Positions 22,020 through 37,566 of a stretch of 64,000 bases of DNA are shown in pieces. Numbering within the stretch: the first letter of the stretch is position 1; the number at the start of each line of letters is the position of its first letter. The DNA comes from Gemmatimonadota bacterium. Lineage in GTDB: Bacteria; Gemmatimonadota; Gemmatimonadetes; Gemmatimonadales; GWC2-71-9. The notes beneath the pieces were generated by a model, which was not told where the DNA came from, did no database searches, and saw only the letters and a list, made by a program, of their open reading frames with translations. The position numbers and the translations under genes were made by a program. The stretch is from the NCBI GenBank assembly GCA_025357945.1, contig JANYLJ010000011.1, positions 62,001-126,000 of the forward strand, read 5' to 3'.

Positions 22020-23849
22020 TCACCCCTCGGGACGTCCATTTGGCAAGCGCTGCAGCTCGAGATCGAACACGGGAACCGCGGGCTCACCGGCGTACATCTC
22101 AGCGAACGGCAGTCGCAGCTGCTGGCCGCCGGCCACCGTCCCTGCCACGGCATGAACAATGGCCAGCGCCTGCAATCGTGTGAGCGCCGGGTTGCCGGGG
22201 ACGCGGCTGAGCGTCCAACCGATCAGCAACGGACCCCGTGCGCGCAACGACCAGCCGGGCCCTGTTACGCGCACTCCCTCTGGCGCAACAATGCGTTGCG
22301 TGGGGCTCCCGAAGAGCCAGCGACCGGCGAGCCCGCTGGCGGAACCGCTGGGTGCGAGCGTGACCGCACCGATCGGCGCGTGCAGCGTCACTTCGATCAC
22401 GGCCTGGTAGCGGGCGCCAAGGCGCCGTTCCAGTGCGATGCGATCGATGCTCGTGTGAATCACCAGGCGACGGTTGTCGGCGGTTACCGTCATCGGAATG
22501 GCCGCATCTGGCGCCGTGTCGTTCACGAATGGATAAATGAACGCCGCGCCCGCGCGCACCCTCGCGACGGCGTTGCGGTCGCCGACGATCCGGCGCCACG
22601 CGGCGGGCCAGGCGCCCGACGGCGGAGCCATCAGCGGGGCCGGCACGGCCGTCAATCCGGCGTTGCCGAGCGCGCCACCCACCACGGCACGATACAGGTC
22701 GGCGACCTGCGATATGTGTTGCCGCGCTTGGGCGACCGGGAGACCGTCTTGCCAGCGCGGGCCGAGCCCGACGTTGTGGTCGGTCGCCATCACGCCGGCG
22801 ATGGCGAGCGCCCGGGGCGACGTAGGCGTGAGCGCGTGGATTGCTTGGCGGAGACGCCAGCTCCACACTGGTTCGCTTGCCCGCAGCAGGTCCCAGTCGC
22901 CGCCCCACTCGCCGTGCAGAACGCGCAGCTGCTTGCCGCGTCGCGCTTCGAGGTGCTGGAAATAAATGTTTGGCAGGGAAGGCAGCAGCTTCGCGGCATT
23001 CTTCCGCATGTTCCACCGGCGGGCGGCCGCGCCAAGGTTCGCGACGCAATCCGGCTCACCGTTGTCCATCGCGTGTTGGATGATCGATACTGGCTCGGTG
23101 GTGGTGCGGTGCGCGAGTTGTTGGCCGACCCCGAGGCTCAGGATGCTGTCGTCGCTGATCGTGGCTGGAAACTGGCTGGGACTGAAGTAGCGGATGCAGT
23201 CCGGCGGCAGCAACCAGTGGGTCAACCCCGCGCCGTAGCTGTTGGGATCGACCGACACAAGCACTCGGGCACCGCGAGCACTTTCCCAGTAGAACGGATC
23301 CCTGGTGACGGTCGCCGGCAGGGGTGGGGAGAAGACCAGGTTGGGTCCCATCAGCAGGTACCTGATCCCGGCTGCGGCGAGTGCGTCGACCAGCGCTTCG
23401 GGGACGGCGGGTACGTCATTGACGACCGCGACCGTGGGGCGTCGGCCGAGTTCGTGCTGGACCCGGTTGAGGTGCAGCGTCAGCAGCTTCAGCGCCTCGG
23501 GGAATGCGGCGGCATGTGGGCTCAACAGTGTCGCGCCGACGCCGATCTGCCCACGCTGCACGAGCAGCCGCAGGCGCGCGATGTGCATCGGGTCATCATG
23601 ATAGTGGTCGAGCCACGCCTCGACCGACCAGCCACCCTCCTCGAACCAGACGAATGACGGATCGCGCGTCGCGGCTTCGATCGCGTGATCGAGGATCCGG
23701 ATGCGTTGCCGGCCGACGTCGGCGATCGGCGCCGTAAAGCCGAGATCGAGGTGACTGCCGGGTACGATGAAAATTGTGTCGCCCGCGCGTTGGGCGGGCG
23801 CTGTTGCCGGCAGCGCCAGCAACAGCGTCATCAGCGCCGGGAAACGCAT
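22020..23849 (-). CDS. GH38-like (DUF5054-type) secreted glycosidase candidate
   Basis: 609 residues with signal peptide MRFPALMTLLLALPATAPAQ. The mature start IFIVPGSHLDLGFTAPIADV resembles the metal-binding start of GH38 alpha-mannosidases and the related DUF5054 group, where the His and Asp (SHLD) bind zinc. Further marks are a long segment with DPSFVWFEEGGWSVEAWL and RGQIGVGATLLSPHAAAFP. Likely an exported sugar hydrolase; the substrate is unknown. The ATG at 23849 overlaps the upstream M55 stop as TAATG, so it is translated with two M55 peptidase-like genes and probably an M28 peptidase gene. This suggests joint use of glycopeptide or cell-wall material. Confidence 0.7.
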   Translation of the reverse strand: MRFPALMTLLLALPATAPAQRAGDTIFIVPGSHLDLGFTAPIADVGRQRIRILDHAIEAATRDPSFVWFEEGGWSVEAWLDHYHDDPMHIARLRLLVQRGQIGVGATLLSPHAAAFPEALKLLTLHLNRVQHELGRRPTVAVVNDVPAVPEALVDALAAAGIRYLLMGPNLVFSPPLPATVTRDPFYWESARGARVLVSVDPNSYGAGLTHWLLPPDCIRYFSPSQFPATISDDSILSLGVGQQLAHRTTTEPVSIIQHAMDNGEPDCVANLGAAARRWNMRKNAAKLLPSLPNIYFQHLEARRGKQLRVLHGEWGGDWDLLRASEPVWSWRLRQAIHALTPTSPRALAIAGVMATDHNVGLGPRWQDGLPVAQARQHISQVADLYRAVVGGALGNAGLTAVPAPLMAPPSGAWPAAWRRIVGDRNAVARVRAGAAFIYPFVNDTAPDAAIPMTVTADNRRLVIHTSIDRIALERRLGARYQAVIEVTLHAPIGAVTLAPSGSASGLAGRWLFGSPTQRIVAPEGVRVTGPGWSLRARGPLLIGWTLSRVPGNPALTRLQALAIVHAVAGTVAGGQQLRLPFAEMYAGEPAVPVFDLELQRLPNGRPEG

Positions 23850-24952
23850 TACGGTTTGAGCGCCGCCCACTCTACCAGATTCATGATCGTCCCGATGTCC
23901 TCGGCCTTGTTCGTGTCGTAGGTGAAGCAGCGTGGCCCGGCGGCGGTATCCGGCGTCAGGGTGAACCCTTGCGGCTTCGCCATCACCTCGTAGACCGGTT
24001 GCGCAAAGGTGTTCCGGATGCACCAGGCGACGTGGTACGGCTTCGAGAAGGTGACCAGCTTGACCTGTCCCGCCTTGGCGCGCTGCACGGCCTTCGTCGC
24101 TGCCGCCTTGATCTGGGCGTGTACCCGCGGGAGCGGCATCATGGCGCCGCCGGATCCGCTGAGCGCGATCTTCACAGTGACCACTTCGGCGGATGGGAAC
24201 GCCTCCTTCATCTCCGCCGCGTACGAATCGTCGCCGGAGACCATGCCGAGCGGCACGCCGAACTCGGCGCCGATGAAGGCCGAGATTCCGGATTCGTTGA
24301 GCTTCATCCCGTTCACGGTCATCGGACCGCCGAGGGCGTAGCTGTGGGCGATGATTCCCGGCGTCCCGGCATTCGGATGGTTCCCGACCACCATCATCAG
24401 GTTCATCCTGGAGTTGACGCCGGTCTCCATCACGTTCGGCCGCGGCCACCCGCGCAGCAGCATCGCCGCCGAGTCGACTTTGTCCACCAGCACGTTGCGG
24501 AAGTTATTGGCACCATGGCCTTCGACAACGAAGAACTGCGTTGCGCCACCACGACGCGCGCCGGCGATCGCTGCGTTGAGCTCGTCGGTGAGTTCCTGCC
24601 GGAATCGCTGATGGTCCGGGGAGTTGCCCGACCGCCCGTTCGACATCTCGCGGCCGTTGTTCACGACGCCGGCGAGTCCCTCCATGTCGGTGACGATATA
24701 CACGGCGAATCCGCCCGGCTTCACCAACTTCTCGAGCTTGGTGCGCGCAAGGTCGTTCTCGGTGACGCCGAAATACTTGTCCGGCGGCAACGTGTCTGCG
24801 TCGCCGAGAGGCGGTGGCGGCGTGACCGGCACGGCTCCTCCGCCACCCCAGGCTGCACCGCGACCGGTACCCTGGGCCGCGAGCGGCGATGCTAATACCA
24901 GCATGGTGGCCGCGACCAGCGCGGCGCGCGGAATCCTGGCGTGGCAGTTCAT
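23849..24952 (-). CDS. Exported M55 (DppA-like) D-aminopeptidase, metal site intact
   Basis: 367 residues from the ATG at 24952, which overlaps the upstream stop as ATGA; a GTG at 24964 is in frame but less likely. Signal peptide MNCHARIPRAALVAATMLVLASPLAAQ, then a Gly/Pro-rich linker to about residue 55. The DppA zinc ligands are all present: Asp89 and Glu91 in VYIVTDMEG, His146 in VEGHGANN, His192 in VVGNHPNAG and Glu220 in LNESGI. Bacillus DppA removes D-amino acids from peptides, so a role in using cell-wall peptides in the periplasm is plausible. It lies between its degenerate paralogue and the GH38-like gene. Confidence 0.85.
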   Translation of the reverse strand: MNCHARIPRAALVAATMLVLASPLAAQGTGRGAAWGGGGAVPVTPPPPLGDADTLPPDKYFGVTENDLARTKLEKLVKPGGFAVYIVTDMEGLAGVVNNGREMSNGRSGNSPDHQRFRQELTDELNAAIAGARRGGATQFFVVEGHGANNFRNVLVDKVDSAAMLLRGWPRPNVMETGVNSRMNLMMVVGNHPNAGTPGIIAHSYALGGPMTVNGMKLNESGISAFIGAEFGVPLGMVSGDDSYAAEMKEAFPSAEVVTVKIALSGSGGAMMPLPRVHAQIKAAATKAVQRAKAGQVKLVTFSKPYHVAWCIRNTFAQPVYEVMAKPQGFTLTPDTAAGPRCFTYDTNKAEDIGTIMNLVEWAALKP

Positions 24953-25974
24953 CGGGTCACCCACGGCTGCATGGCATCGATCAGGTAGCCGATCTGACGG
25001 GCGCTCTCGGTGGTGAAGCGGAACGAACGTAGACCGGTCTTTTCGAGGGTGAACCCGGACATCGCGGCGATCTGGCCGACGACGTCGTCCGACATCGAAC
25101 TCTGGACCGTGAACTCCACGCGGTACGGCTTGTCCATCTTGAACGGCGCGAACGCTCCCGCCTTCTCGCGGCGCACCGCTTCGGCCGCGCCGGCGGCGAT
25201 CATCTGCCGCACCCTGACCGGCGAGTAGGTGATCCCGGCCTGCCTGCCGACCGCGTATTTCGTGATTATGCCAACGAACCCGTTCGGGAGCATCGCCCTG
25301 GTTTCTTCGATCGCCGCGTCGTCGCCAGCCACCATCGATACCGAGACGCGCATCTCTCCGGCGATCAGCGCCGAGATGGCGACCTCATTGAGCGGCTTGC
25401 CATTCACGGAAAACGCGTCGAAGCCGAAGGTGTGCGGCAGGATTCCCTTGCTCCCCGCGCTCGCCACGGCACCGTCGAACATCAGCGTCCCGAAGGTGCT
25501 GTCGAGCCCGGAGATCATGAAGATCGGGCGGGGGAAGCCGCGCACCAGCACCACTGCACTATCGAGTTCCCACGGCAGGATATTGCCGAAGGAGTTGCCC
25601 GGGTGTGCATCGCCCACGACGAACGATCTCGCGCCACCAAGGCGTGCGCCACGGACGGCGGCGTTGGCCTCCTGCGTCAGCAGCGAGCGAAAGCGCCCCT
25701 CATAGTCGGCGAACGACGCCGTGTTCGTCTGGGCCGGCGCACCAGCCTCGGTGCCCGCCATGACCTCCTTCATGTCGACGGCGGCGCCCATCCCGGCCAT
25801 GTTCGAGACGATGTACACGCGAAAGCCGTTTTCGAATGGCAGGTGCTTGCCCTGAAACACGTTGGGGCCGGTGCCGGGCCCGCCGCGTTCGCCGGCTTGG
25901 CCGGGAAGCGCGACGGCGCTCGCGATCAGGAGTGCCAGCAGGGGGCGTGTGCAGCGCGGGAACGACATCGGCAT
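24949..25974 (-). CDS. M55-like paralogue with lost metal ligands (probable pseudoenzyme)
   Basis: 341 residues from the ATG at 25974 (a GAAAGG stands about 7 nt before it); a coupled ATG at 26025 with TGATG overlap is the alternative. Signal peptide MPMSFPRCTRPLLALLIASA onward. Fold and order match the neighbouring M55 protein throughout, but the first ligand motif reads SNMAG instead of TDMEG, so Asp and Glu become Asn58 and Ala60, and the second His is Val170. His124 and Glu197 remain. With three of five ligands gone it is unlikely to be a normal zinc peptidase; it may pair with the active copy or bind peptides. The open frame is intact and under the same operon. Confidence 0.8.
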   Translation of the reverse strand: MPMSFPRCTRPLLALLIASAVALPGQAGERGGPGTGPNVFQGKHLPFENGFRVYIVSNMAGMGAAVDMKEVMAGTEAGAPAQTNTASFADYEGRFRSLLTQEANAAVRGARLGGARSFVVGDAHPGNSFGNILPWELDSAVVLVRGFPRPIFMISGLDSTFGTLMFDGAVASAGSKGILPHTFGFDAFSVNGKPLNEVAISALIAGEMRVSVSMVAGDDAAIEETRAMLPNGFVGIITKYAVGRQAGITYSPVRVRQMIAAGAAEAVRREKAGAFAPFKMDKPYRVEFTVQSSMSDDVVGQIAAMSGFTLEKTGLRSFRFTTESARQIGYLIDAMQPWVTR

Positions 25975-26024
25975 GGGGCGGCCTTTCAGGGTGCAAGTGG
26001 TGGGGCAGGGTGTGTGGTGGGTCA

Positions 26025-27290
26025 TCACTTCTTGATCGTCGCCCCGGTCAGGTGGGCGATCGCCGAGAGCGTCGTTTGTGCCGCGTTGAGGCCGAGCCGG
26101 AAGTCGGTGTCCGCGTAGGTCGCAAACACATCGGTGGGCTGGTGCCACTGCGGATCCCAGCCGCTGCCGATCTGGGCGAGACGCTCGTTCTCTCGCAGGG
26201 AAATCGCGGCGACCAGGTCCTTGAAGGGGTCGGAGTCGGTGTTGCTCATCCGGTCGCCGACCGCCGCCGGATAATCGGTCGCGTACTTGTCGTTCGCCGC
26301 CCGGAAGAACCAGGCGAGCTTCTGTGCCTGGTCGGCAAACTTCGACCGGCCGGCGAACTCCACGTTCACATCGGCCTCGCGCCGCTGCTCCGGGCTGACC
26401 TGACCGGTCGGCCCCGGCATGCCGTGATCGAACAACATCATGTCGTGCTGGATCATCCCGAGCCACCTGGGTTCGGGGTACTTGCCCGAGCCGACCGGGT
26501 TTTCCTTCCCTTGCAGGTCTTTGCGTTGGTCCACATACGCATGCGCACCGTTCAAGCCGGTTTCCTCGTTGTTCCAGAGCACGAAGCGAATCGATCGGTC
26601 GGTCACGACGTCGGGCGCGTTGAAGACGCGCGCCAGCTCCATGACGAGCGCCGTACCCGAGCCATCGTCGTTCGCCGCCGCGCCGAAGCCATGGCCGTCC
26701 ATGTGGCCGCCGACGATATACATCTCGTCGGGGTGGGCGGTGCCGACCTTGGTGCAGAACACCTCTTCGCGCGGGCCTGGTGTGTCCGGTTCCCGATTGA
26801 TCCGGCGCAGTGCGGTGTCGGGTTGCAGTTCGGGTTTCATGTTCACCCCGGTCGGCGCGCGTGTTCCCTTGACCGGATTGGAAAGCCCGCCGCGACCGCC
26901 CTGGCCACCGGCACCATCGGCGGCCGCACTCCGCGCACCGTTGCCGCGTCCCGGGGCGGCACTGTCGGCGGCGCTCGGCAGCGGGATCTGCCGACGGGCG
27001 TACTCATAGTGCACCCGCTCGGTATTGCGGCAGCCGTAGCTCTTCAGCTGCGCCTCGATCCAGTCCACCGCGGCGCGATTGCGGGCGGTTCCCTGCCGTC
27101 GATCGCCGAACTGCGTGAGTCCCTTCACGGTCGCCTTGTACCGTTGCAGGTCGAGGCGCTCCACCAGCGATTTCACTGTGGAATCCGGGCGGGCAGCAGC
27201 GAAGCCGGCAACCAGATCCTGCGCGCCTGCGGCGACAGGAGGTCCGGCGACGACACTGCAGAGGATGGCGAAGCAGGGCATCAAGCGCAT
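26025..27290 (-). CDS. Secreted M28 zinc aminopeptidase
   Basis: 421 residues with signal peptide MRLMPCFAILCSVVAGPPVAAGAQ. The M28 di-zinc site is visible: GGHMDGHGFG for the first His and Asp, AANDDGSGTA for the bridging Asp, and LWNNEETGLNGA for the catalytic Glu pair. A Gly/Ala/Arg-rich insert near residues 105-150 breaks the N-terminal part and resembles inserts in other exported peptidases of this window. It leads an operon with two M55 proteins and the GH38-like protein. A TATACT element on the minus strand at 27348-27353, about 58 nt upstream, could be its -10 box. Confidence 0.9.
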   Translation of the reverse strand: MRLMPCFAILCSVVAGPPVAAGAQDLVAGFAAARPDSTVKSLVERLDLQRYKATVKGLTQFGDRRQGTARNRAAVDWIEAQLKSYGCRNTERVHYEYARRQIPLPSAADSAAPGRGNGARSAAADGAGGQGGRGGLSNPVKGTRAPTGVNMKPELQPDTALRRINREPDTPGPREEVFCTKVGTAHPDEMYIVGGHMDGHGFGAAANDDGSGTALVMELARVFNAPDVVTDRSIRFVLWNNEETGLNGAHAYVDQRKDLQGKENPVGSGKYPEPRWLGMIQHDMMLFDHGMPGPTGQVSPEQRREADVNVEFAGRSKFADQAQKLAWFFRAANDKYATDYPAAVGDRMSNTDSDPFKDLVAAISLRENERLAQIGSGWDPQWHQPTDVFATYADTDFRLGLNAAQTTLSAIAHLTGATIKK

Positions 27291-27527: not shown

Positions 27528-28364
27528 TCAGCGGTCGGGGGAGGGAGGACTCGTTGCAGAAGTGGGTCGATGGGTGAGCCACACGCTGAACGATACGGTA
27601 CGCTCGCGCGCCGTGTTCTTGCCAGACAAGCCGGCATAGTACCCGCCGACTATCGCCATGCGCTCGCTCAGGTGATAGATCAGCGAACCGCCAACCTTCG
27701 TCGCGCTGTAGGCGATGCCGGACTGGCCGGCGCCCGCCAACGCAGCGACGTTGAATGTCTGTACCATGGCGGTAACTCGATGCCCGGCGTCCAGTCCGAT
27801 CGTGGCGTCGTAGCGAATCTCGTCGTTGCCATGGCGCCAGGCGGAACCGCCCGCCGAGATGGAGATCCATCCGCGCCGCGATCCGATGCCATAGCCAGTG
27901 CCGTAGAGCAGCCGGAGTTCGGCCTCGGCCTTCACCGGGCCGAGCACCGGCCGGGCATCGGCGTCATAGAGCAAGGGCAGGTCAACACGAGGTTGAATCG
28001 ACAACACGCCGAGCTTACCCTGGGTGATCCGCGTCATCACGAAGAAGCCGGTGGCACCGAACCCGGTGGTCGATGCCGTCGTACCGTTGTGGTTGTCCTC
28101 GAGGTGCGCGAACCCCTGGCCGATGCCGACGCTCACCCCTTCACGTAATCCATAGATGAAGTAGAGCCCCCAGTCCACCTTGTCGAGGCCGTTGGCGGTC
28201 GCGCCGGCGCCCGGATCGAAGCGGTCGGGGATCGTCCCCTGGTTGAGTCCTTGCGACAGGAACCAACCGTGGGGCTGCACGGTCCACTGCGCGGAAAGGT
28301 GCCACGGAAACGCAAGAGTCAGGAGCACCCCGGTCGCGGTGCCCAGGCCGACAGGAGACCTCAC
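27528..28364 (-). CDS. Outer-membrane beta-barrel-like protein of the exopolysaccharide operon
   Basis: 278 residues from the GTG at 28364, which overlaps the upstream gene's stop as GTGA. Signal peptide VRSPVGLGTATGVLLTLAFP ending at LSAQ. The rest alternates polar and hydrophobic residues with many Gly and aromatic positions (for example VDWGLYFIYGLREGVSVGIG and VGGSLIYHLSERMAIVGGYY), as in outer-membrane barrels such as the phenol-degradation-type transporter family. It lacks a C-terminal Phe but ends the barrel with TVSFSVWLTHRP. By position, it could be the outer-membrane export or anchoring partner of the exopolysaccharide system; this is inference. Last gene of the operon. Confidence 0.65.
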   Translation of the reverse strand: MRSPVGLGTATGVLLTLAFPWHLSAQWTVQPHGWFLSQGLNQGTIPDRFDPGAGATANGLDKVDWGLYFIYGLREGVSVGIGQGFAHLEDNHNGTTASTTGFGATGFFVMTRITQGKLGVLSIQPRVDLPLLYDADARPVLGPVKAEAELRLLYGTGYGIGSRRGWISISAGGSAWRHGNDEIRYDATIGLDAGHRVTAMVQTFNVAALAGAGQSGIAYSATKVGGSLIYHLSERMAIVGGYYAGLSGKNTARERTVSFSVWLTHRPTSATSPPSPDR

Positions 28365-29743
28365 GGCACCACCGCATCGGCCGCGAGCACCGCGTCGTAG
28401 CGCACTGGCAATTGTGCGGCCGCCGGACGGCGATACAGCGTGTAGCCTGCCCAACTCCAATTTACCACAAACCCGATCGGTGGGTGGACATCGGCGTCGA
28501 GCGTGAGGCCATCACCGTCGGCAGTGATGAGGACGTAATCCACCTTGGCGGCCGCGTCAGCCAGTGCCAGTTCGAACCCGGGGTCGCGCGTGGTCAGGTA
28601 TGGCGCCAGCGATGGCGCCCATTTGAGCAGTTGTGGCGCAAACCGGTCGTCGATCAGGATGCTCCGGTCTGGCGCCTTGGCCAAGGCGTCGGCCACCGCG
28701 TGGGCCGCCAGATCTGCCTCACTCACCCGTGGCCAGGGGACCAACCACCACGCCGCGATCGCCTGGGCGACCGCGGCCGCACACACGAGGGCGCGCCGCG
28801 ACGACTTGAGGTCCGTCGGCAGGGCGACAATGGCGACAAGCGTCAGCAGGCCGGTCGCGAACGCCAGCGAAAAATGCCAGCCGACCCGATTGGCGAGCAC
28901 CAGCAATGCAAACGGCAGCAGCACGCCAGCGGTGGTCGCCCGCGGTCGTAGCAGCGCGAACAGCGACACCACCAGGTAGGGTACGGTCCAGACGAGGATG
29001 GTGGCAAACCCTGGTGACGCCGGTTCCCACGGCGTGAACGGAAACGCGACGCGATGGATGAAGATCCACGACAAGTACGCCCACGTCGCGGTCGCCGCGA
29101 CGCCGGGAAAGACGAGCAGGACCAGCTGGGACGCGAACGGCGGAATCTGCAACCGCGGGAAGATGATCGGCAGCACGGCGCCGGCGACGAGGGCGAGGGC
29201 GAGGCCGAGCGGCGAGGTGTAGAACGCGAGGCCGAGCCACAACCCGGTGTAGAGGCCGTGGATCGTCTGGCGTGTGGCCCACCAACGTCGGTAATGGCGC
29301 CATCCGACGTAGAGCGCGAACAGTCCGATCGCCTCGTTGAAATCCCCGGCCACCAGGTGGACACCGATCGGCGTCCACAAAACCGAGAGCAGCAGCACGA
29401 ATGGCACGATCGAGCGCTGCCACGTGCAGTCGGCGAGTACCATCCACGCCAGCCCGAACAGCGCGGCGCCAGCCAGGATGATGATCCAGAGATCCGCCGG
29501 CCAGGGCAGCAGCAGCAGGAACGGCAGCGGTGGGTACTCGAAGCCCAACAGCTGCAATTGGCCGCGATTCTCCGCGAAGCGGACCCGGCTCAGGAACGCG
29601 CCGTGGATGTCGCTGCGCCAGCCGCCGTGCATGAGCAGCACGCTCGCGACAATCAGCGGTACCACCACCGCGAGTGCGAGAAGTGCCCGCACCCAGCGGG
29701 GGGCGGCCGGTTCAGCCGGCGGCGCCATGGCGGGTGAGGCCAT
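28361..29743 (-). CDS. Polytopic membrane protein, GT-C glycosyltransferase-like
   Basis: 460 residues with about ten hydrophobic segments. The first loop holds GAFLSRVRFAENRGQLQLLGFEYPPLP, reminiscent of GT-C (GT39/GT87-type) transferases whose first periplasmic loop carries an acidic residue, though no clear catalytic motif can be fixed. The last 100 residues form a soluble part with LIDDRFAPQLLKWAPSLAPYL, probably periplasmic. Its start lies inside the 3' end of the GT2 gene (32-nt overlap) and its stop overlaps the outer-membrane gene as GTGA. Probably adds or modifies sugars in the exopolysaccharide pathway. Confidence 0.6.
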   Translation of the reverse strand: MASPAMAPPAEPAAPRWVRALLALAVVVPLIVASVLLMHGGWRSDIHGAFLSRVRFAENRGQLQLLGFEYPPLPFLLLLPWPADLWIIILAGAALFGLAWMVLADCTWQRSIVPFVLLLSVLWTPIGVHLVAGDFNEAIGLFALYVGWRHYRRWWATRQTIHGLYTGLWLGLAFYTSPLGLALALVAGAVLPIIFPRLQIPPFASQLVLLVFPGVAATATWAYLSWIFIHRVAFPFTPWEPASPGFATILVWTVPYLVVSLFALLRPRATTAGVLLPFALLVLANRVGWHFSLAFATGLLTLVAIVALPTDLKSSRRALVCAAAVAQAIAAWWLVPWPRVSEADLAAHAVADALAKAPDRSILIDDRFAPQLLKWAPSLAPYLTTRDPGFELALADAAAKVDYVLITADGDGLTLDADVHPPIGFVVNWSWAGYTLYRRPAAAQLPVRYDAVLAADAVVP

Positions 29744-31553
29744 GGGTCGTTTTCTCCCAGTAGTACGGCTTGGTGAACAGTTGTCCCAGCGCCTTGAACG
29801 ATGCGATCGAGTGGAGCACCCAGTAGAACGGGTTGAACAGCGAGAAAAGCACCAGCACGTGGAGCTTTCGCTTGAACACGGCGAACATGTTGACGTAGAT
29901 CGCCAGCGCGTTGCCGATCAGCAGGTTGAAGAGCGACAGATACAGCACGGCCGGTGGGAACAGCGACTCGAGCAACGAACTGCGGGTGAACAGCCAAACG
30001 ATCGTCAGGACGACCGAGATCGGCTGGATCAGGAAGATGAGCGGCGTGCCGCCGATCAGCAGCGCGAATCCGAGCGTGTGCTTCCATCCCGCGCGACGCA
30101 CCAGACCGTACGGGTCGCGCGAAAAAACCAGCGCGGTCTGCATGTAGCCCTTGATCCACCGGGAGCGCTGGCGCAGCCAGTTGCCGAGCTGCTTGTTCGC
30201 TTCCTCATACGTGGTCGAGTTGACGATGCCGACGCGGTACCCGTGCATCGCGGCGCGAATGCCCAAGTCGGCGTCCTCGGTGACATTGAACGGATCCCAG
30301 CCGCCGAGTTCGCGAAGGACTTGCGTGCGGAAGTGGTTGCTGGTGCCGCCCAGCGGAATTGGCAGCCCGAGCCGGTCGAGGCCCGGCAGCAGATAGTCGA
30401 ACCAGAACGAGTACTCGAGCGTGAACATCCGGGTCAGGAAGTTTTCGTTCCAGTTGTAGTAGTTCAGCGCGGCCTGGACGCAGACGAGCGCCTTCGGCCC
30501 GCGCCGGAAGGCAAGCAGGGCCTTCTTGAGCTGGTCCGGTTCCGGCTGGTCTTCGGCGTCGTACACCACCAGATACTCGCCTCGTGCGAAGAGCAGCCCG
30601 ACGTTGCACGCCTTGGGCTTCGTCTGCGGGTCGCCACCCGGCACGACCAGGAACCGTACGTTCGCCCCCGGTGTCGCCGCCTTGGCCGCAGCCAGCGTGT
30701 CGGGATCATTCTCCTCGAACAGCAGCACGATGTCGAGCTTGTCGGCCGGATAATCCAGCTCGGCAAGCGAGCGCAGCAGCGTACCGATCACGCGCTCTTC
30801 CATGAAGACCGGCACCAGGATGCTGTAGACCGGGAGCGACCGGTTGTCGAGCGCCCGGACGTCCTCGTCGCTGATGCTGATCGCCGTCTCGGCGGCCGCA
30901 CCGGCGACGCCCACCCAGGTGCGGAAAATCACGGTGATCAGGAAGAACGCCGTGATCGGAATGTTGAGGAACAACAGTGTCCGCGCGGGCGCGAGCCACA
31001 GGCCGCCGAGCAACACCAGGCACAGCAACACAAACGTCAGGTATTGCGGCAGCGTGAACACGGTGAACGCGCTCTCGGACTGGTCGCGGAAGTAGAGGCC
31101 GTAGATCGAGGTATCGACCACCTTGCGCCGATGAATCGAGGCGATCGCGCGATCGATGTCCCATTCGGTCGTGACGCGAAAATCGATCGCCTTGCCGGGA
31201 TAGATGATTTCGAGGATGCTGCGCAGCTCGGGTGCCGGACTGTCGGCGACCGCCACGGTTACCGATCGGGCATCCTCCCGGAGCGGGACGGCGCGATGTT
31301 GCAGCGTCGCCTCGAGCGGCATGCGCTGGGCCACCCGCGGGTCCACGGTCCCCTGCTCCACCGTGACGAACGGCAGCTGCCACAGGTCGGCGAGGGCGCG
31401 GGCGAGGTCGAGGCGCCGGACGTAGCCGAGAATCAACAGCAGGCGGCCGAGACGCTCACCCGTCCGCTGCTGGTGTTGTAGCGCGGTATTGAGCTGGACT
31501 TCGCTGATCAATCCCCGGTGGACGAGGTACTCACCCAGTCGTATCGAGCTCAC
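29712..31553 (-). CDS. MshEN-GT2 exopolysaccharide synthase (cellulose synthase-like)
   Basis: 613 residues from GTG. The N-terminal 150 residues are an MshEN/GspE-N-type domain with two 24-residue motifs at residues 5-28 and 34-57, separated by 5 residues; the first matches the known c-di-GMP-binding pattern (RLG, G, L, Q) fully, the second ends in Leu instead of Gln. Then come two membrane helices and a processive GT2 domain with PVFMEERVI, VVYDAED, VTEDADLGIR and QRSRWIKG, then about four helices to YYWEKTTHGLT. There is no PilZ domain. E. coli NfrB joins the same two domains in the opposite order and is c-di-GMP controlled. It overlaps the BcsB-like gene by 23 nt. Confidence 0.85.
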   Translation of the reverse strand: MSSIRLGEYLVHRGLISEVQLNTALQHQQRTGERLGRLLLILGYVRRLDLARALADLWQLPFVTVEQGTVDPRVAQRMPLEATLQHRAVPLREDARSVTVAVADSPAPELRSILEIIYPGKAIDFRVTTEWDIDRAIASIHRRKVVDTSIYGLYFRDQSESAFTVFTLPQYLTFVLLCLVLLGGLWLAPARTLLFLNIPITAFFLITVIFRTWVGVAGAAAETAISISDEDVRALDNRSLPVYSILVPVFMEERVIGTLLRSLAELDYPADKLDIVLLFEENDPDTLAAAKAATPGANVRFLVVPGGDPQTKPKACNVGLLFARGEYLVVYDAEDQPEPDQLKKALLAFRRGPKALVCVQAALNYYNWNENFLTRMFTLEYSFWFDYLLPGLDRLGLPIPLGGTSNHFRTQVLRELGGWDPFNVTEDADLGIRAAMHGYRVGIVNSTTYEEANKQLGNWLRQRSRWIKGYMQTALVFSRDPYGLVRRAGWKHTLGFALLIGGTPLIFLIQPISVVLTIVWLFTRSSLLESLFPPAVLYLSLFNLLIGNALAIYVNMFAVFKRKLHVLVLFSLFNPFYWVLHSIASFKALGQLFTKPYYWEKTTHGLTRHGAAG

Positions 31554-33603
31554 GACGCACGACGCGAGGATAGAGCCAGATCGAGAGAATCAGCAGGATC
31601 ACGAGCGCCGCGATGAAGATCGGGTTCTTGTACCGGGTGAAGAGGTTTTGCGGGGCATCGGGCTCCGCCTCGAGTCGCCAGCCAGCGTTCGCGACGGTGA
31701 GCGAGCGCACCGGGCCCTGCATTCCGCGGATCGCCAGGTCGCCGCGCACCCCGAACCAACCGTATGGCGCCAGCGTTTCGCGCAGGAGGTCGGCCAGCGG
31801 CTGGCCGCTCGCGCCGGTGTGATGGAGGAGCAGGACGTCGTCGCCGTTGCGCACCCAGCCCTGCATCGCGCCATACGGCGCGTCGGGCGCAAACTCGTCC
31901 CAGACCTTGCCGTTGAGGTCGCGCAACCGGACGCCATCCGAGCGGAGCGGTGCACTGAGCGCTTCGGCGAGCGCGCTGGTGCCGATGGCGAGCAACGGTC
32001 CCGTCGCCGCAGCGAGGTCGCGCGCCAGCGCTGGCGCCAGCGGTGTTCGCGTCGTCTGCTGCATCGCACCGACCACGCTCGCTGCCAGCTCAACCCGGAA
32101 TCGGTCGAGTGGATCGAGCAGCACCGAAAACGACGGCACGAACGCCTGCGGGAAGCGCCCGAAGCCCGGGGCCATCGCCGTGGTGCCGTTGGTCACGAAC
32201 GCCGACGCGTTGTCGATGGTCGCGGTGAACACGGGGCCGCCCACGACGCAACCACCTTCGCCAAGGGTCACCTGGAAGCGCACGTCGAAGACGTTGTCGC
32301 GCCGCAGCAAGTGCGCCGGGATCGGGATCACGGCGTCGAACCCGTCATGGTCGAGGGTGCGCGAATAGATCAGGTCGCCGTTCAGATGCAGGCGGAGCGA
32401 ACCGCCGCCGTTGACCGGCAGGATCGAGTGGCGGACGATCAGCCGCAGTGACGTTAGCGTGATCGACGTGCCGAAATCGCCAAGCGAGATCGGGTACGAC
32501 GAGGCGACCAGCGAGTTTCCCTCGACGGTGCGGCTGTCGAAGCCAAGATCGGCCAAGGTACGCAGCGTGGCGTTTGCCACGACGTTGTGCCCGAGATCGA
32601 CGGTGGCGGTGCGAAACCCCGTCGCGGCGACGAGATCGGCGCCGCCCGCCAGCGTAAAGAGCTGGCGCGCGTCACGTCGTGCGGCGATCGCGAGAATCGT
32701 CCCGCGTCCGTTGTCGACGTGCTCCACTCTGGTGCTGCCCGTGGGGGTCCACACGACGGCGCGAGACCACGGTCCCGGCTCCGGCAGCGGCGTACCGACC
32801 GGCGGCAACGGCTTGACCTCGAACACGGTGGCCATGCCGCGGTACCGCCGCGCGACGTAGGCCGCGGCATCGAGTGCGGCCTGCGCCGCGTCGGCCGACG
32901 GTTGCTCCGCCATATAGAACGTCACGCGTTCCAGCCACGGCTGGAAAAATCCGTTGACTGCCGCGGTCGGTCGTGGCATGTCCCGGTAGCTCACCTGACT
33001 CTCAGGCTTGACCACGGTGCGGTAGAACATCTCGGCCTGGCACCGGTCACGACCAGGCACCGAGAGGCCAACCTGGAACACGGCCTTGCCGTCTTGCACG
33101 ACGGCGTCGGCGAGCGAGAGCGTGATGCTCGTCATCGTGTCGGTGAGGTCGCGAAGGGCGAGCACGTGGTCGCCCTGGCGGAGAACCAGGGTGGCCGGCG
33201 GCATCCGCGGCGTGGGCATCAGGCGAAGTTTGAACTCCGCCGGACGCAAACCGTCATTCACCGGGATGGCGATCGTGGCTTCCGCTGCGGTGCCGACCAG
33301 GACGATGCCGCTGCGGTAGCCGATCGCACTGAACGTCAGGTTCAGCGGGGCGAGTGCGGCGCTATCGCTGGCGCGTCCTCCCGGAACGATCCGCGGCATC
33401 TGTTCGCCGTGCGTGGTGTCGCTGCGGGTGCCGCCACCGTTCGTGGCCGCGCCGGCCATCGCGATGGAATCGGCGGCGGCCGGCAGCGGCGCGCGAGCGC
33501 CGATCGGCTGTGTCTGCTGGCGATTGCACCCGGTCACGGCGAGCACGAGTGCCACGAGGATCGCCGTGTGCGGGCGTCGCGCAATCTGTCGCAGCATCGT
33601 CAC
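31531..33603 (-). CDS. BcsB-like periplasmic subunit of a polysaccharide synthase
   Basis: 690 residues resembling the cellulose synthase regulatory subunit BcsB: two rounds of carbohydrate-binding-like and flavodoxin-like domains (LRLMPTPRMPPATLVL; GFFQPWLERVTFYMAEQPSADAAQAAL; LRLHLNGDLIYSRTL; LLHHTGASGQPLADLL), ending in one membrane helix (IFIAALVILLILSIWLYPRV). In Bcs this subunit lines the periplasmic exit of the glucan channel. Oddly, the N-terminus (ILVALVLAVTGCNRQQ) has a lipobox with Cys26, so it may be lipidated as well as membrane-spanning. It stands directly before the MshEN-GT2 synthase gene, as expected for its partner. Confidence 0.75.
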   Translation of the reverse strand: MTMLRQIARRPHTAILVALVLAVTGCNRQQTQPIGARAPLPAAADSIAMAGAATNGGGTRSDTTHGEQMPRIVPGGRASDSAALAPLNLTFSAIGYRSGIVLVGTAAEATIAIPVNDGLRPAEFKLRLMPTPRMPPATLVLRQGDHVLALRDLTDTMTSITLSLADAVVQDGKAVFQVGLSVPGRDRCQAEMFYRTVVKPESQVSYRDMPRPTAAVNGFFQPWLERVTFYMAEQPSADAAQAALDAAAYVARRYRGMATVFEVKPLPPVGTPLPEPGPWSRAVVWTPTGSTRVEHVDNGRGTILAIAARRDARQLFTLAGGADLVAATGFRTATVDLGHNVVANATLRTLADLGFDSRTVEGNSLVASSYPISLGDFGTSITLTSLRLIVRHSILPVNGGGSLRLHLNGDLIYSRTLDHDGFDAVIPIPAHLLRRDNVFDVRFQVTLGEGGCVVGGPVFTATIDNASAFVTNGTTAMAPGFGRFPQAFVPSFSVLLDPLDRFRVELAASVVGAMQQTTRTPLAPALARDLAAATGPLLAIGTSALAEALSAPLRSDGVRLRDLNGKVWDEFAPDAPYGAMQGWVRNGDDVLLLHHTGASGQPLADLLRETLAPYGWFGVRGDLAIRGMQGPVRSLTVANAGWRLEAEPDAPQNLFTRYKNPIFIAALVILLILSIWLYPRVVRRELDTTG

Positions 33604-33625
33604 GCTCCCTCCGAGAATGACGGCG

Positions 33626-35260
33626 TCATCTGCGCCGCCAGATCGTCAGGCCGCCCTCGTCGAAGGCGCGGTCAAAACGATTCTTGAATTCGTCACGTCC
33701 CGCAATCGCTCGGGCCACCGCTCCCGCGTCGTGATGGTTGTCCACGACGACCCAGTCCACTGTGCCTTCGGGCGCGGCGAGCGCGGCGGCACCCAATTGC
33801 CAGGTCCAGTGGTAGACCCGATCCCGCAGCGCGATCCTGGTCCGCGGACTGATGTTGATCGCTTCGTCCACCAGGACGCGTCCGCCGTCGTAGTGGGTCG
33901 CAAGCCAATCGGAGGCGTCTTGCTGCCGCCGGTCGCCATCGCGGATCGCCAGTCCTTCACGCAGGGCGCCAGCCTGCGCCGGCCAGCGGACGGTAAAGAG
34001 CGCCGCTTGCCCCAGTACGGCCGTTAGCCCAGCGAGGAGCATGCCCCGTCGCCACCGCGGGTGCGATGTCACCATCCGCAGCCCGCCCATCACGGCCAGC
34101 ACGGCGAGTCCGGGGAGCATCATCACGCCGTAGCGGATGTTCAACACCCCGGCGGGGTGCGTCCAGGGGAGCTGGATCGTACTCTGCTGTGCCCAGAGTG
34201 CGAGGATGTTGAATGGCAACGCCGTGAGCAGCAGCAACACGGTGGCGCCGCCGTGCCGGACTTGCCGGAGGACGGCGGTCGATCCGAGCAACCCCAGCAC
34301 GGTGAGCAGTGCCCCGGCCGAGAGCGCCGTAGCGCCGAGGTAGTACCACACGGACAGCCCGAGGTGCCCCGCCGCAGGAACCTGGCTCTGCGCGGCGAGC
34401 GCCGCCTGCTGGCTTTGCGCTGACCAGACGCCGCGCTGGAACTCGAGCGGATCGCCAAAGTAGATCCAGTTGAAGCCGAGCCACGCGGCCACCATCAACG
34501 CACTCGGTGTCGCGAAGAGCGGTGCGTCACGCCACCACACCTTCGCGATGCCCGCCGCGTTACGGGCGTCGAAGTTCGCCTGCGGTGCGGCCGGTTGTTC
34601 GCCGCGCGTCGCTGTGAGTGCCACGCGATGGCCGCGATACGCCAGCCAGGCCACCAGCGGTGTGGCCACCATCACGTAGAACCAGCCGTCGTATCGCGAC
34701 CCCACGGCCAGCGCGGCGAAGCAGGCCGATGCCAGGAGCGCGCGCCGCGACCCGGTGTCATTCCAGCGGTCCAACCCATTGACCGATGCGACCAGGCAGG
34801 CCAGCAGGACCGGTTCGGTCATCGCGGTGGTTTGCAGGAAGAGCAGGCTCGGATTGAACAGCACGAACGCGGTGCCGATCCATGCGAAACGTGGTGCGCC
34901 GGTGCGGCGGACCAGCAGGTCGTGGCAAGAGGCGATCGTCGTGACGTACGCAATGAAGCCCACGATGCCACCGGCCACGCCATTCCACCACCAGTGATCG
35001 ACGAGCGCGAACGGAAGCATCAGCAGGTGCGGCACCGGCAGCCAGACGGTGCCGAGCATCTGGAGTCCTGGGGTCACCGAATCGAAAACGCGTCGAGCAA
35101 TGTCGAGGTGCGCCTGCGCGTCCCAGAACGCGAAAACCACGCCGGCCTCGTGCGCCCAGACCTGTGCCACGAGGCCGACCACGACGGCGACGAGGCCGGC
35201 CTGGAAGGCCGGCCTCAGGTGTAACAGCGGACGTTCGCGTCGTGGCGCTTTGCCGATCAC
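33626..35260 (-). CDS. GT39-like polytopic mannosyltransferase-type protein
   Basis: 544 residues with roughly 12 hydrophobic segments and a short soluble C-terminus. The first periplasmic loop has VFAFWDAQAHLDIARRVFDS, the Asp-containing pattern of GT-C enzymes that use polyprenyl-phosphate sugars, followed by GTVWLPVPHLLMLPFA. The family transfers sugars to acceptors on the periplasmic side. The ATG at 35260 overlaps the PEP-CTERM gene's stop as ATGA, and the BcsB-like gene follows after 22 nt, so it belongs to the exopolysaccharide operon. It could act on the secreted polymer or on the PEP-CTERM protein. Confidence 0.75.
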   Translation of the reverse strand: MIGKAPRRERPLLHLRPAFQAGLVAVVVGLVAQVWAHEAGVVFAFWDAQAHLDIARRVFDSVTPGLQMLGTVWLPVPHLLMLPFALVDHWWWNGVAGGIVGFIAYVTTIASCHDLLVRRTGAPRFAWIGTAFVLFNPSLLFLQTTAMTEPVLLACLVASVNGLDRWNDTGSRRALLASACFAALAVGSRYDGWFYVMVATPLVAWLAYRGHRVALTATRGEQPAAPQANFDARNAAGIAKVWWRDAPLFATPSALMVAAWLGFNWIYFGDPLEFQRGVWSAQSQQAALAAQSQVPAAGHLGLSVWYYLGATALSAGALLTVLGLLGSTAVLRQVRHGGATVLLLLTALPFNILALWAQQSTIQLPWTHPAGVLNIRYGVMMLPGLAVLAVMGGLRMVTSHPRWRRGMLLAGLTAVLGQAALFTVRWPAQAGALREGLAIRDGDRRQQDASDWLATHYDGGRVLVDEAINISPRTRIALRDRVYHWTWQLGAAALAAPEGTVDWVVVDNHHDAGAVARAIAGRDEFKNRFDRAFDEGGLTIWRRR

Positions 35261-36045
35261 GCGTCGGAAGTCTGGCGGCGCCCGCGGCGGCGCCGTGCCA
35301 GCGCACCGAGCCCGGCGAGGCCGCCGCCAAGCAGGGTGAGTGTGGCAGGTTCCGGCACGACTTCCGTCGGCAACCCGATCGAACCGTGATCAACTGCAAA
35401 AATCGCGTTGTCGAAATCCCAGTCACTCCACCGGTACGTCACGTCCTCAAAACCGAAGAGCCCCACGCCGGCGGTGCCGGGAACCGTGCCGACACCGCGG
35501 TTGCCGCTAACGCCGTTCGGAAAGTACGCCAGATGCGCGTACCCGTCGGAGCCGTCCTGGTTCAGGTTTCGGGCCGGGTCGCCGGAGAAGAACCAGTTGT
35601 ACTCACCGTTGTTCTGGTTGACCATCAATGCGAAAATGACTTCGGACCCCGGGATCCAGCTGAACACCCTGGTGAACGGCGATCCGTAGCAGGCGTTGGC
35701 CGGCACCGGACAGGTCACGCCGTAGGGCTTGCCGAACAATGGGATGCCGAGGAGTCCGGCGAGATCCTGATTCGAGACGCCGTCGCAGTTCGTGCGATAG
35801 GTGGCGGAAAACTGGAAACAGCCAGCGGCGAGGTCGGCGGCGTACTGGCCTCCAGTCAGGGCGAAAATCTCATTGCCATACACGGTGGTCGCTTCCCAGC
35901 CGTAGTAGGTCGCCGTGATCGAGCTGCCAGTTGCGATCAGCGGCGACACCACGCCGTAGTCCGGCAGGTAGGTTTGCTGCCCGCGAGCACCCGTTGTGAC
36001 GACGGCGGCGAGCAGGGCGACGATGCCAACGATGCGGGACAGCAC
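35257..36045 (-). CDS. PEP-CTERM sorted secreted protein
   Basis: 262 residues from the GTG at 36045, chosen because GAGGAG stands 9 nt before it and VLSRIVGIVALLAAVVTTGARG is a signal peptide; an in-frame ATG at 36069 is the alternative. The body is a Gly/Asn/aromatic-rich domain with four Cys and the acidic segment YRWSDWDFDNAIF. The C-terminus VPEPATLTLLGGGLAGLGAL followed by Arg-rich residues is a textbook PEP-CTERM signal, read by an exosortase, of which none is encoded here. PEP-CTERM proteins are known to go with exopolysaccharide loci, which fits its place as first gene of this operon. Confidence 0.85.
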   Translation of the reverse strand: MLSRIVGIVALLAAVVTTGARGQQTYLPDYGVVSPLIATGSSITATYYGWEATTVYGNEIFALTGGQYAADLAAGCFQFSATYRTNCDGVSNQDLAGLLGIPLFGKPYGVTCPVPANACYGSPFTRVFSWIPGSEVIFALMVNQNNGEYNWFFSGDPARNLNQDGSDGYAHLAYFPNGVSGNRGVGTVPGTAGVGLFGFEDVTYRWSDWDFDNAIFAVDHGSIGLPTEVVPEPATLTLLGGGLAGLGALARRRRGRRQTSDA

Positions 36046-36291
36046 GGCGATCAACTCCTCGGGTTCCAATGGTCCAACCGACTTACCTGCCGACTAGCGC
36101 AAACCGGGTGCCGCGCCAACGCTGCGCAGCCAACTCCTTCTGGTATAACGGTTTCCGTCTGGGCTGTTGCCGACCAGCGACACCGGCCAAGTGTCGCGGT
36201 GCGGCGCCATCTCAGCAAGATAACGACACTTTTGTCGGGTTTACGCAACAGTGTGGCGTCAGCTTCGGCTTGGACCGGGCGAGCGGTCGGG
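36046..36291 (-). promoter_or_regulatory. Regulatory region of the exopolysaccharide operon
   Basis: No gene is seen. The region contains a 7-bp inverted repeat GCGACAC (36177-36183)/GTGTCGC (36191-36197) and a second CGACA/TGTCG hairpin at 36224-36237, so CGACAC or its complement occurs three times in about 50 bp. The minus strand has a TATACC element near 36141-36146 that could be a -10 box, without a good -35. The repeats may bind a regulator of the operon or, in part, end thrC transcription from elsewhere; the first reading is preferred because they lie upstream of the operon. Confidence 0.4.
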
Positions 36292-37566
36292 TCAGGTCTG
36301 CCGCTCGCCGCTCGAACTGAGTACGTCGCGCACGGCAGCGATATCTGCCGGGATGCGGATCGGTCGATTGGCCAATGCCGGTGCGATCGAGTCGTTCTGG
36401 TGGATCTGCTGCAGGACACCGGGGTCCTTGAGGATGTGTCCCGTGAGTACCGCGACGACCCGGTCGTGGCGCCCAATAGTCCCGTCGGCTCGAAGCTTCC
36501 GCACGCCAGCCACTGCGGCCGCGCTGGCGGGTTCGCAGCCGACGCCGGCGCGGTCGATTGCCACCTTGGCGGCCAGGATTTCGGCGTCGGAAACGGTCAG
36601 CACCACGCCGTCCGTTGCGACGATCGCGCGCGCGGCGCGATGGTACGACGCCGGTGCGCCGATCTTGATGGCGGTCGCGATCGTCTCGGCATGGACCGGG
36701 GTCAGCTGGTCGAATCCTCGGGAGAAGGCCGCGGCGAACGGTCCGGCGCCTTCGGCCTGCACCGCGGCGAGTCGCGGTCGGCGATCGATCAGCCGCCACG
36801 CCATTGCCTCGTCGATCGCCTTGCCGAATGCGGAGGTGTTGCCAAGGTTTCCCGCCGGCAGCACGATCCAGTCCGGTGCGTTCCAGTCACACTGCTGGAG
36901 CAGCTCGAGCACGATCGTCTTCTGTCCCTCGAGGCGGAACGGATTGATCGAGTTCAACAGGTACACGCCCAGCTCGACGCTGACCTGCTGCATCAGGCGG
37001 AGGCAGTCGTCAAAGTCACCGTCGACCAGGAGCGTGCGCGCGCCATATGCCAGCGTCTGCGACAACTTGCCGATCGTCACCTGGCCATCGGGGACGATCG
37101 CGAGTGCTGGGATCCCAGCCTGTGCCGCGTACGCTGCAAGCGACGCGGACGTATTCCCGGTCGACGCGCACGCGACAGCGGTTGCACCGATCCGTTTCGC
37201 TTGCGTCATCCCCACGGTCATGCCACGATCCTTGAACGATCCGGTCGGGTTGTGACCTTCGTGCTTGAGCAGCAGGCCGTCCACGCCGCACCACGCGCTC
37301 AACGCGGCGCGCTCGAGCAGCGGGGTGTTCCCTTCGGGATGTGAGACCGCGACATCGACCGCCGTCGGCAATACCAGCTCACCAAATCGCCACACACCGG
37401 ACGGTGAGCGGTTTGCCGCGAGCCGGGCGCGGAGTCCGTCCCGCGCCGGCATCGCGTGCACCACTGCCAGCAATCCCTGGCACACTGGGCAGCGAGGTGA
37501 CCGATCGAGCTCGTCGACTTCGTGGCCGCAGTCATCACACCGCTGCCACGTCCGGCGCGTCGTCAC
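36292..37566 (-). CDS. thrC: Threonine synthase
   Basis: PLP enzyme converting O-phosphohomoserine to threonine. 424 residues from GTG. An N-terminal zinc-ribbon-like segment (CDDCGHEVDELDRSPRCPVC) is followed by the fold-type II core with HPEGNTPLLE, the cofactor lysine at residue 112 in NPTGSFKDRG, ASTGNTSASLAAYAA and LPAGNLGNTSAFGKA. GTG start overlaps the thrB stop as GTGA, so both threonine enzymes are coupled. It resembles the shorter, archaeal/plant-type synthases rather than the E. coli one. Confidence 0.93.
   Translation of the reverse strand: MTTRRTWQRCDDCGHEVDELDRSPRCPVCQGLLAVVHAMPARDGLRARLAANRSPSGVWRFGELVLPTAVDVAVSHPEGNTPLLERAALSAWCGVDGLLLKHEGHNPTGSFKDRGMTVGMTQAKRIGATAVACASTGNTSASLAAYAAQAGIPALAIVPDGQVTIGKLSQTLAYGARTLLVDGDFDDCLRLMQQVSVELGVYLLNSINPFRLEGQKTIVLELLQQCDWNAPDWIVLPAGNLGNTSAFGKAIDEAMAWRLIDRRPRLAAVQAEGAGPFAAAFSRGFDQLTPVHAETIATAIKIGAPASYHRAARAIVATDGVVLTVSDAEILAAKVAIDRAGVGCEPASAAAVAGVRKLRADGTIGRHDRVVAVLTGHILKDPGVLQQIHQNDSIAPALANRPIRIPADIAAVRDVLSSSGERQT

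Follow-up and report, generated by a model that had tools for sequence, protein, structure and literature searches.

The window, a stretch of 64,000 nucleotides (nt) from a Gemmatimonadota contig, holds on its minus strand at 27528-36045 an operon of six genes that we read, with a probability of roughly 70%, as a cyclic di-GMP (c-di-GMP)-gated, synthase-type exopolysaccharide machine of the kind published as xag-like or sfz. In such a machine, the MshEN domain of gene 4 would sense c-di-GMP, and the GT2 domain joined to it would polymerise a sugar nucleotide and thread the chain through the inner membrane, to be received by the BcsB-like product of gene 3. Where the chain emerges on the outer side of the inner membrane, the product of gene 5, and in this genus also that of gene 2, may act on it, probably attaching side sugars taken from a polyprenyl-phosphate donor; all or part of the chain would pass the outer membrane by way of the barrel encoded by gene 6. 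Transcription with sigma-54 would simultaneously yield the PEP-CTERM protein of gene 1, to be sorted to the surface by an exosortase that the genome encodes in another locus, possibly for a role in the polymer matrix.

The synthase pair and the conserved unit

Scans against Pfam and NCBIfam revealed that gene 4 (29712..31553), a predicted processive GT2 synthase with an N-terminal MshEN domain, scores well over the cut-offs for both families, and that its tandem MshEN c-di-GMP motif (NF053729) reaches 60.6 bits against a cut-off of 38, the domain being of the type predicted to bind c-di-GMP. The protein carries DAED, TEDAD and QRSRW; DAED, TEDAD and the QxxRW pattern, residues of the active site, are kept across 36 aligned members. 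Six GGDEF places occur in the genome. Gene 3 (31531..33603), read as a BcsB-like periplasmic subunit, scored 15.9 bits for BcsB in the same scan, under the cut-off of 21; its profile of 33 rows matched E. coli BcsB in the PDB at 2.7e-22 over its first half, and each of the 33 rows matches BcsB at E<=0.01. Read from the sequence, the protein has a signal with a lipobox-like TGC at its N-terminus and a hydrophobic helix at its C-terminus. A preliminary description, made from the letters of this DNA, had called these two genes a Bcs-like synthase pair, and the BcsB profile match together with the MshEN-GT2 architecture bears that out.

The six open reading frames (ORFs) are closely packed. Genes 1 and 2 overlap by 4 nt, genes 3 and 4 by 23 nt, genes 4 and 5 by 32 nt and genes 5 and 6 by 4 nt (GTGA, given a GTG start of gene 6 at 28364), with a single 22-nt gap between genes 2 and 3. 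The likely start of gene 1 is the GTG at 36045, with an RBS-like (ribosome-binding site-like) GAGGAG at 36055-36060, while its ORF opens at 36069; for gene 6, whose ORF opens at 28460, the GTG at 28364 is the likely start. The one-directional, tightly packed set of the preliminary description is what these coordinates give, and its family assignments agree with the profiles for genes 1-4 and with the predicted folds for genes 5 and 6.

Comparisons within the genus revealed that the set is kept as a unit. All six contigs that span the place (G000, G001, G003, G004, G005, G007) hold the six genes in the same order behind a threonine synthase gene, which supports the single operon of the preliminary description, and a seventh genome (G008) has four of them on a 6.5-kb contig that ends on both sides; loci L009-L012 were taken as those of G008, G001, G005 and G007 and were counted once. 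The BcsB-like gene 3 occurs in 7 of 10 genus genomes and in none of the 27 others of the family or the 24 others of the order, and the set is missing from the remaining three genus genomes. Two of these (G006 and G009) have other neighbours at the threonine synthase gene and no operon unit there, with the gene after threonine synthase in G006 resembling the window's GH38-type gene at 22020, and in the third (G002) the contig is short. On this evidence, the unit was gained or lost whole. Among 298 sampled Gemmatimonadota genomes, the synthase was found at E <= 1e-120 in five, all of this genus (7 members sampled).

Beyond the genus, genome contigs scanned for gene 4 gave at least 576 loci, of which the best 80 (44-89% identity, several of them near-copies) were read, with neighbour families assigned by profile searches of ORFs at E < 1e-5; the counts that follow describe these 80. 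The gene 5 family lies near the synthase in 70 loci and BcsB in 57, and the core of BcsB-like protein, MshEN-GT2 and membrane transferase, joined in diderms by the barrel, recurs in about 15 phyla, so that a unique six-gene system can be rejected as far as the core is concerned. A conjugative plasmid of Geobacillus stearothermophilus (L121; CP128455.1, 3591-10328) carries a row of nucleotidyltransferase, BcsB, MshEN-GT2 and 'glycosyltransferase family 39' genes; with a GDP-mannose gene, BcsB, MshEN-GT2 and GT-C complete on a conjugative element, the cassette is able to move from one bacterium to another. A Hyphomicrobiales plasmid (L122) likewise holds BcsB, synthase and GT-C genes, together with a GH113 gene. 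The nearest synthase outside the phylum, 63% identical to that of the window, comes from Thermus scotoductus (L013), and in a quick, midpoint-rooted tree, built without bootstrap and fixing neither donor nor direction of transfer, the Gemmatimonadota rows group with it (support 96), near Chloroflexota and Actinomycetota. In the locus of a Schumannella bin (L065, 8920-13983), the MshEN-GT2 gene stands in two tandem copies.

Membrane partners and the outer-membrane barrel

Gene 5 (28361..29743; 460 amino acids (aa), relatives mostly 440-530 aa) matches no Pfam or NCBIfam family, and its fold was evaluated on an AlphaFold2 model built from 51 sequences (predicted local distance difference test (pLDDT) 88.7, predicted template modelling score (pTM) 0.90). 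Foldseek placed ArnT on top (2.1e-3), and VIA-align gave Pmt4 at Z 21.8 (316 residues, 4.1 A) and ArnT at Z 18.0 (413 residues, 4.8 A), with OST, ALG12, AftA and others as further matches; rows 1-43 all show enzymes of the GT-C type, alone or in complexes, at Z 10.4-21.8, after which the scores drop to 4.8. On this model, gene 5 has a GT-C fold. Gene 2 (33626..35260), a putative GT-C type membrane transferase of PMT/GT39-like character, scores 20.4 bits for PMT, just under the cut-off of 22.7 (E 4.1e-4), and is homologous to gene 5 along its length (hhalign 98.9%, 2.4e-17). GT-C enzymes usually have an acidic residue in their first outer loop; gene 2 carries FWDAQAHLDIARR there (alignment of seven), and the acidic residue is kept in all six rows that reach the place. 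The two polyprenyl-sugar-type transferases named in the preliminary description are in this way supported as two GT-C type, mutually homologous proteins.

These folds also bear on a different explanation, in which the PEP-CTERM protein is the substrate that both GT-C proteins glycosylate, in the manner of PMT enzymes, while the synthase makes a polymer unrelated to it. The closest folds being Pmt4, ArnT and OST would suit it, as would the distribution of the gene 2 family, which was found in 4 of the 80 loci, all Gemmatimonadota and among the loci read only in this genus, and only where a PEP-CTERM gene also occurs. The gene 5 family, however, adjoins the synthase in loci without a nearby PEP-CTERM gene, including those of monoderms and plasmids, and we consider a protein-glycosylation locus quite unlikely.

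Gene 6 (27528..28364) likewise belongs to no Pfam or NCBIfam family. Its model (pLDDT 80.6) is that of a secreted outer-membrane beta-barrel of 12 strands, preceded by a hydrophobic N-terminal stretch that would serve as export signal, and the nearest folds are FapF (7.8e-10) and a COG4313 channel (2.2e-8); the twelve strands and these neighbours suggest a pore, and nothing more specific than that. The barrel occurs in 26 of the 80 loci, in none of 31 monoderm and 26 of 49 diderm ones (Fisher p 8e-8, uncorrected for kinship), with Chloroflexota, Thermomicrobia and Actinomycetota counted as monoderms. Outside Bacteroidota, 25 of 31 diderm loci have it, as against 1 of 18 within that phylum. A distribution restricted to diderms is the behaviour expected of an outer-membrane part.

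Known relatives and the candidate sugar

By described gene content, the operon is a variant of the xag-like/sfz kind. In the available text of the source papers, a BcsB-XagB-XagC-XagD set is proposed for a biofilm polymer and iron stalks, with Sfz3 given without known function (PMC8250860, PMC4643136), and xag/sfz genes serve as stalk markers (PMC12607638, PMC11044966). As described there, the xag-like/sfz genes of Mariprofundus and Ferriphaselus share with our operon a BcsB-like protein next to MshEN(IPR007831)-GT2, beside which stands a protein of ~500 aa that gene 5 may correspond to; an sfz protein of 310-327 aa fits the gene 6 barrel by size, and phosphomannose isomerase and an ATP/ADP antiporter lie nearby, as in related loci here (PMC8250860, PMC4643136). 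Three of the loci (L035, L039, L054) hold BcsB, MshEN-GT2, GT-C, barrel, CotH, TLC antiporter and GH113 together, close to sfz1-6 and their neighbours. Gene 5 holds the xagC/sfz3 place next to the synthase at a size similar to ~500 aa, a correspondence drawn by description only. For Xanthomonas xagABCD, also likened by description, the accessible account makes xagB a putative glycosyltransferase, reports that the increased biofilm of an rpfG mutant depends on xagA and xagB, and does not name BcsB (PMC3609779).

The operon differs from the Mariprofundus and Ferriphaselus cassettes in lacking the GH10-like/GH113 hydrolase (xagD/sfz4) and the CotH gene and in adding a PEP-CTERM protein, a second GT-C protein and a sigma-54-type promoter. 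Because no hydrolase is among the six genes, we regard it as a variant working like the xag-like/sfz kind and not as a full member. The preliminary description knew of no described system with this set, a claim that holds only in part, since a BcsB-like protein, MshEN-GT2 and a ~500-aa protein, the last the probable counterpart of gene 5, make up the published systems, as far as their text was available (PMC4643136, PMC8250860), and the core is spread over about 15 phyla. What is new is, for the genus, the PEP-CTERM protein, the second GT-C protein and the sigma-54-type promoter and, for the core, the GT-C fold predicted for gene 5, the 12-stranded barrel predicted for gene 6 and the pointer to mannose; the portions of the literature consulted on MshEN/BcsB/Xag/sfz, mannan synthase and Gemmatimonadota PEP-CTERM yielded no account of a PEP-CTERM variant, of the fold of the third gene or of mannan for this synthase. 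If the correspondence holds, the predicted folds would give jobs to two 'unknown' families of the iron-stalk literature.

Several observations weigh against the reading as an exopolysaccharide machine of this kind. The first-outer-loop acidic residue varies in the family of gene 5, which may for that reason lack transferase function. The search for BcsB gave nothing in 23 of the 80 loci, 20 of them monoderm and six with less than 1500 nt upstream, and the barrel is not nearby in 17 of the 18 Bacteroidota loci. The kinship with the xag-like/sfz systems rests on domain content and size as given in the papers' text.

Two further systems share parts of this architecture. E. coli NfrBA, in the text available, likewise joins GT2 to MshEN, is activated by c-di-GMP and has an outer-membrane partner, but its MshEN is C-terminal, NfrA combines TPR with a large pore, and the nfrBA-ybcH operon is without BcsB or GT-C (PMC8669469). 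Bcs cellulose synthase has the GT2 and BcsB pair in common with our operon, which differs in its MshEN in place of PilZ, its GT-C partner and its lack of BcsC and BcsZ; the Pfam/NCBIfam scan found no PilZ, BcsC or GH8/BcsZ family in the operon. Taken as a variant cellulose-type system, with MshEN replacing PilZ, the operon would make a beta-glucan from UDP-glucose. The BcsB homology of gene 3 and the similarity of the GT2 domain to CelA (E 5.4e-14) speak for this, whereas the missing Bcs genes and NCBIfam scores that fall well short of all the cellulose and PgaC cut-offs (51 bits against 699 for CelA) speak against it, and these scores disfavour cellulose as the product. The recurrent neighbours described below also argue the other way, and the first 25 families in the tally of neighbours include no glucose-specific supply gene, leaving a cellulose-type system unlikely in our judgement.

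Evaluating these neighbours for sugar supply revealed a GMP_PMI gene, or its isomerase domain, beside the core in 7 of the 80 loci (two each in Aquificaceae, Synergistaceae and cyanobacteria and one in Parachlamydiales, the cyanobacterial ones having just the isomerase domain), and also on the Geobacillus plasmid. Six of these proteins were scanned and every one matches TIGR01479, three of them over the cut-off, and a mannose isomerase family is the commonest in the neighbour tally (5/78). GH113, a family known for beta-mannanases, adjoins the core in 3 of the 80 loci and on the Hyphomicrobiales plasmid. The published sfz neighbourhood, in the text at hand, includes a phosphomannose isomerase as well (PMC8250860, PMC4643136). 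Given these recurring GDP-mannose genes, the GH113 hydrolases and the sfz isomerase, a mannose polymer is our best guess for the product of the core family, and the neighbours offer a concrete, cheap test of polymer identity. The guess is weaker for this genus, because no GDP-mannose gene adjoins the operon there, each genus genome having sub-cut-off matches elsewhere. We would put forward only tentatively, as unlikely in its entirety, a wider picture in which the core is a c-di-GMP-gated mannan synthase family of some 15 monoderm and diderm phyla, with GT-C decorating nascent beta-mannan and the barrel serving the outer membrane, which also makes the twisted iron-stalk matrix and whose genus cassette came from a Thermus/Chloroflexota-like source and was wired to the exosortase pathway via the sigma-54 promoter.

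A further family beside the core (C11), ~330-390 aa with an N-terminal export-like signal, occupies the place of a hydrolase in 6 of the 80 loci (L029, L033, L038, L045, L050, L058). A Pfam scan of one member gave no match, and the family's candidacy as a GH113 relative found no support (hhalign E 0.28; a single PDB row for its profile, at E 1).

The PEP-CTERM protein, its promoter and the flanks

Gene 1 (35257..36045) scores 25.4 bits for PEP-CTERM against a cut-off of 20.7 (E 1.4e-5), has weak DUF4114 similarity and possesses the C-terminal PEP motif, hydrophobic stretch and basic tail. The protein recurs in five further genus loci, in every one of which PEPAT lies close to the end and the tail is rich in arginine. 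The preliminary description had listed BcsC, BcsZ, PilZ and an exosortase as absent, which is correct within the operon; a search of the remaining genome rejects it for the exosortase, which is encoded in another locus (3.3e-62), in keeping with the link to protein sorting that had been suggested. Exosortase is present in 7 of 10 genus genomes, including all six of high quality, and its locus is of the classical type, with EpsI, a Wzc-type kinase and a polyprenyl sugar transferase. An exosortase-exopolysaccharide link has long been suspected, and the variant in this genus illustrates how PEP-CTERM sorting can be joined to a polymer system of the synthase type. The classical exosortase/exopolysaccharide cluster (G000:C49:90000-126000; L119, L120) includes a response regulator (L120:5564-6652) whose matches include a diguanylate cyclase model.

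A candidate sigma-54 (-24/-12) type promoter, CGGCACCCGGTTTGC, lies at 36099..36113 on the minus strand, and its GG-N10-GC pattern, found in the 222 nt that precede the ORF of gene 1, can be aligned across the six genus loci without exception. Against shuffles, the single regions gave p of 0.009, 0.005, 0.056, 0.0035, 0.19 and 0.059, and the score summed over the six was reached by 0 of 2000 shuffles, a figure that is indicative, as the pattern was chosen after viewing the alignment and its weights were assumed. RpoN is encoded in 9 of 10 genus genomes. On the same strand, the stretch 36165..36250, bounded by TGTTGC (36245-36250) and GCAACA (36165-36170), may bind an activator, GCAACA ending 51 nt from the promoter-like site. 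This resembles the proteobacterial PEP-CTERM/exosortase system with sigma-54 PrsK/PrsR, where, in the text available, PEP-CTERM genes have -24/-12 sites with an upstream element 32-92 nt away (PMC1569441); exosortase and EpsI are likewise in this genome. That system is described for Proteobacteria (PMC1569441, PMC9850573, as far as accessible), whereas no protein in the 10 genus genomes exceeds the cut-off for PrsR of proteobacterial type, and the exosortase here sits in another locus than the operon. NtrC-like activators are present in genus genomes, one of them ~6 kb from the exosortase (G000:C49:91301-92680). None of the genome's four other PEP-CTERM genes has a sigma-54 site by the strict pattern, and the promoter link is accordingly shown for this operon only. 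In the promoter and terminator scan, sigma-70-type and terminator-like sites were no commoner than in shuffles.

That the PEP-CTERM gene stands upstream by chance, with no part in the polymer system, seems to us distinctly improbable. Four further such genes elsewhere in the genome would fit coincidence, as would the regex result for the 80 loci, in which none of the cores from other genera has a PEP-CTERM gene next to it (9 matches, of which 3 are real, all Gemmatimonadota, and 6 look like spurious frames). Against coincidence, gene 1 overlaps gene 2 and comes first in all six spanning genus loci, behind the shared sigma-54-type site.

Upstream, the operon is flanked by the threonine-synthase-type gene (PALP, 36292-37566) and downstream by an M28 peptidase gene, beside which two adjoining Peptidase_M55 (D-aminopeptidase) genes lie at 23849-26106. 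A GH38-type gene (alpha-mannosidase family) follows a few kb downstream of the operon, at 22020-23870.

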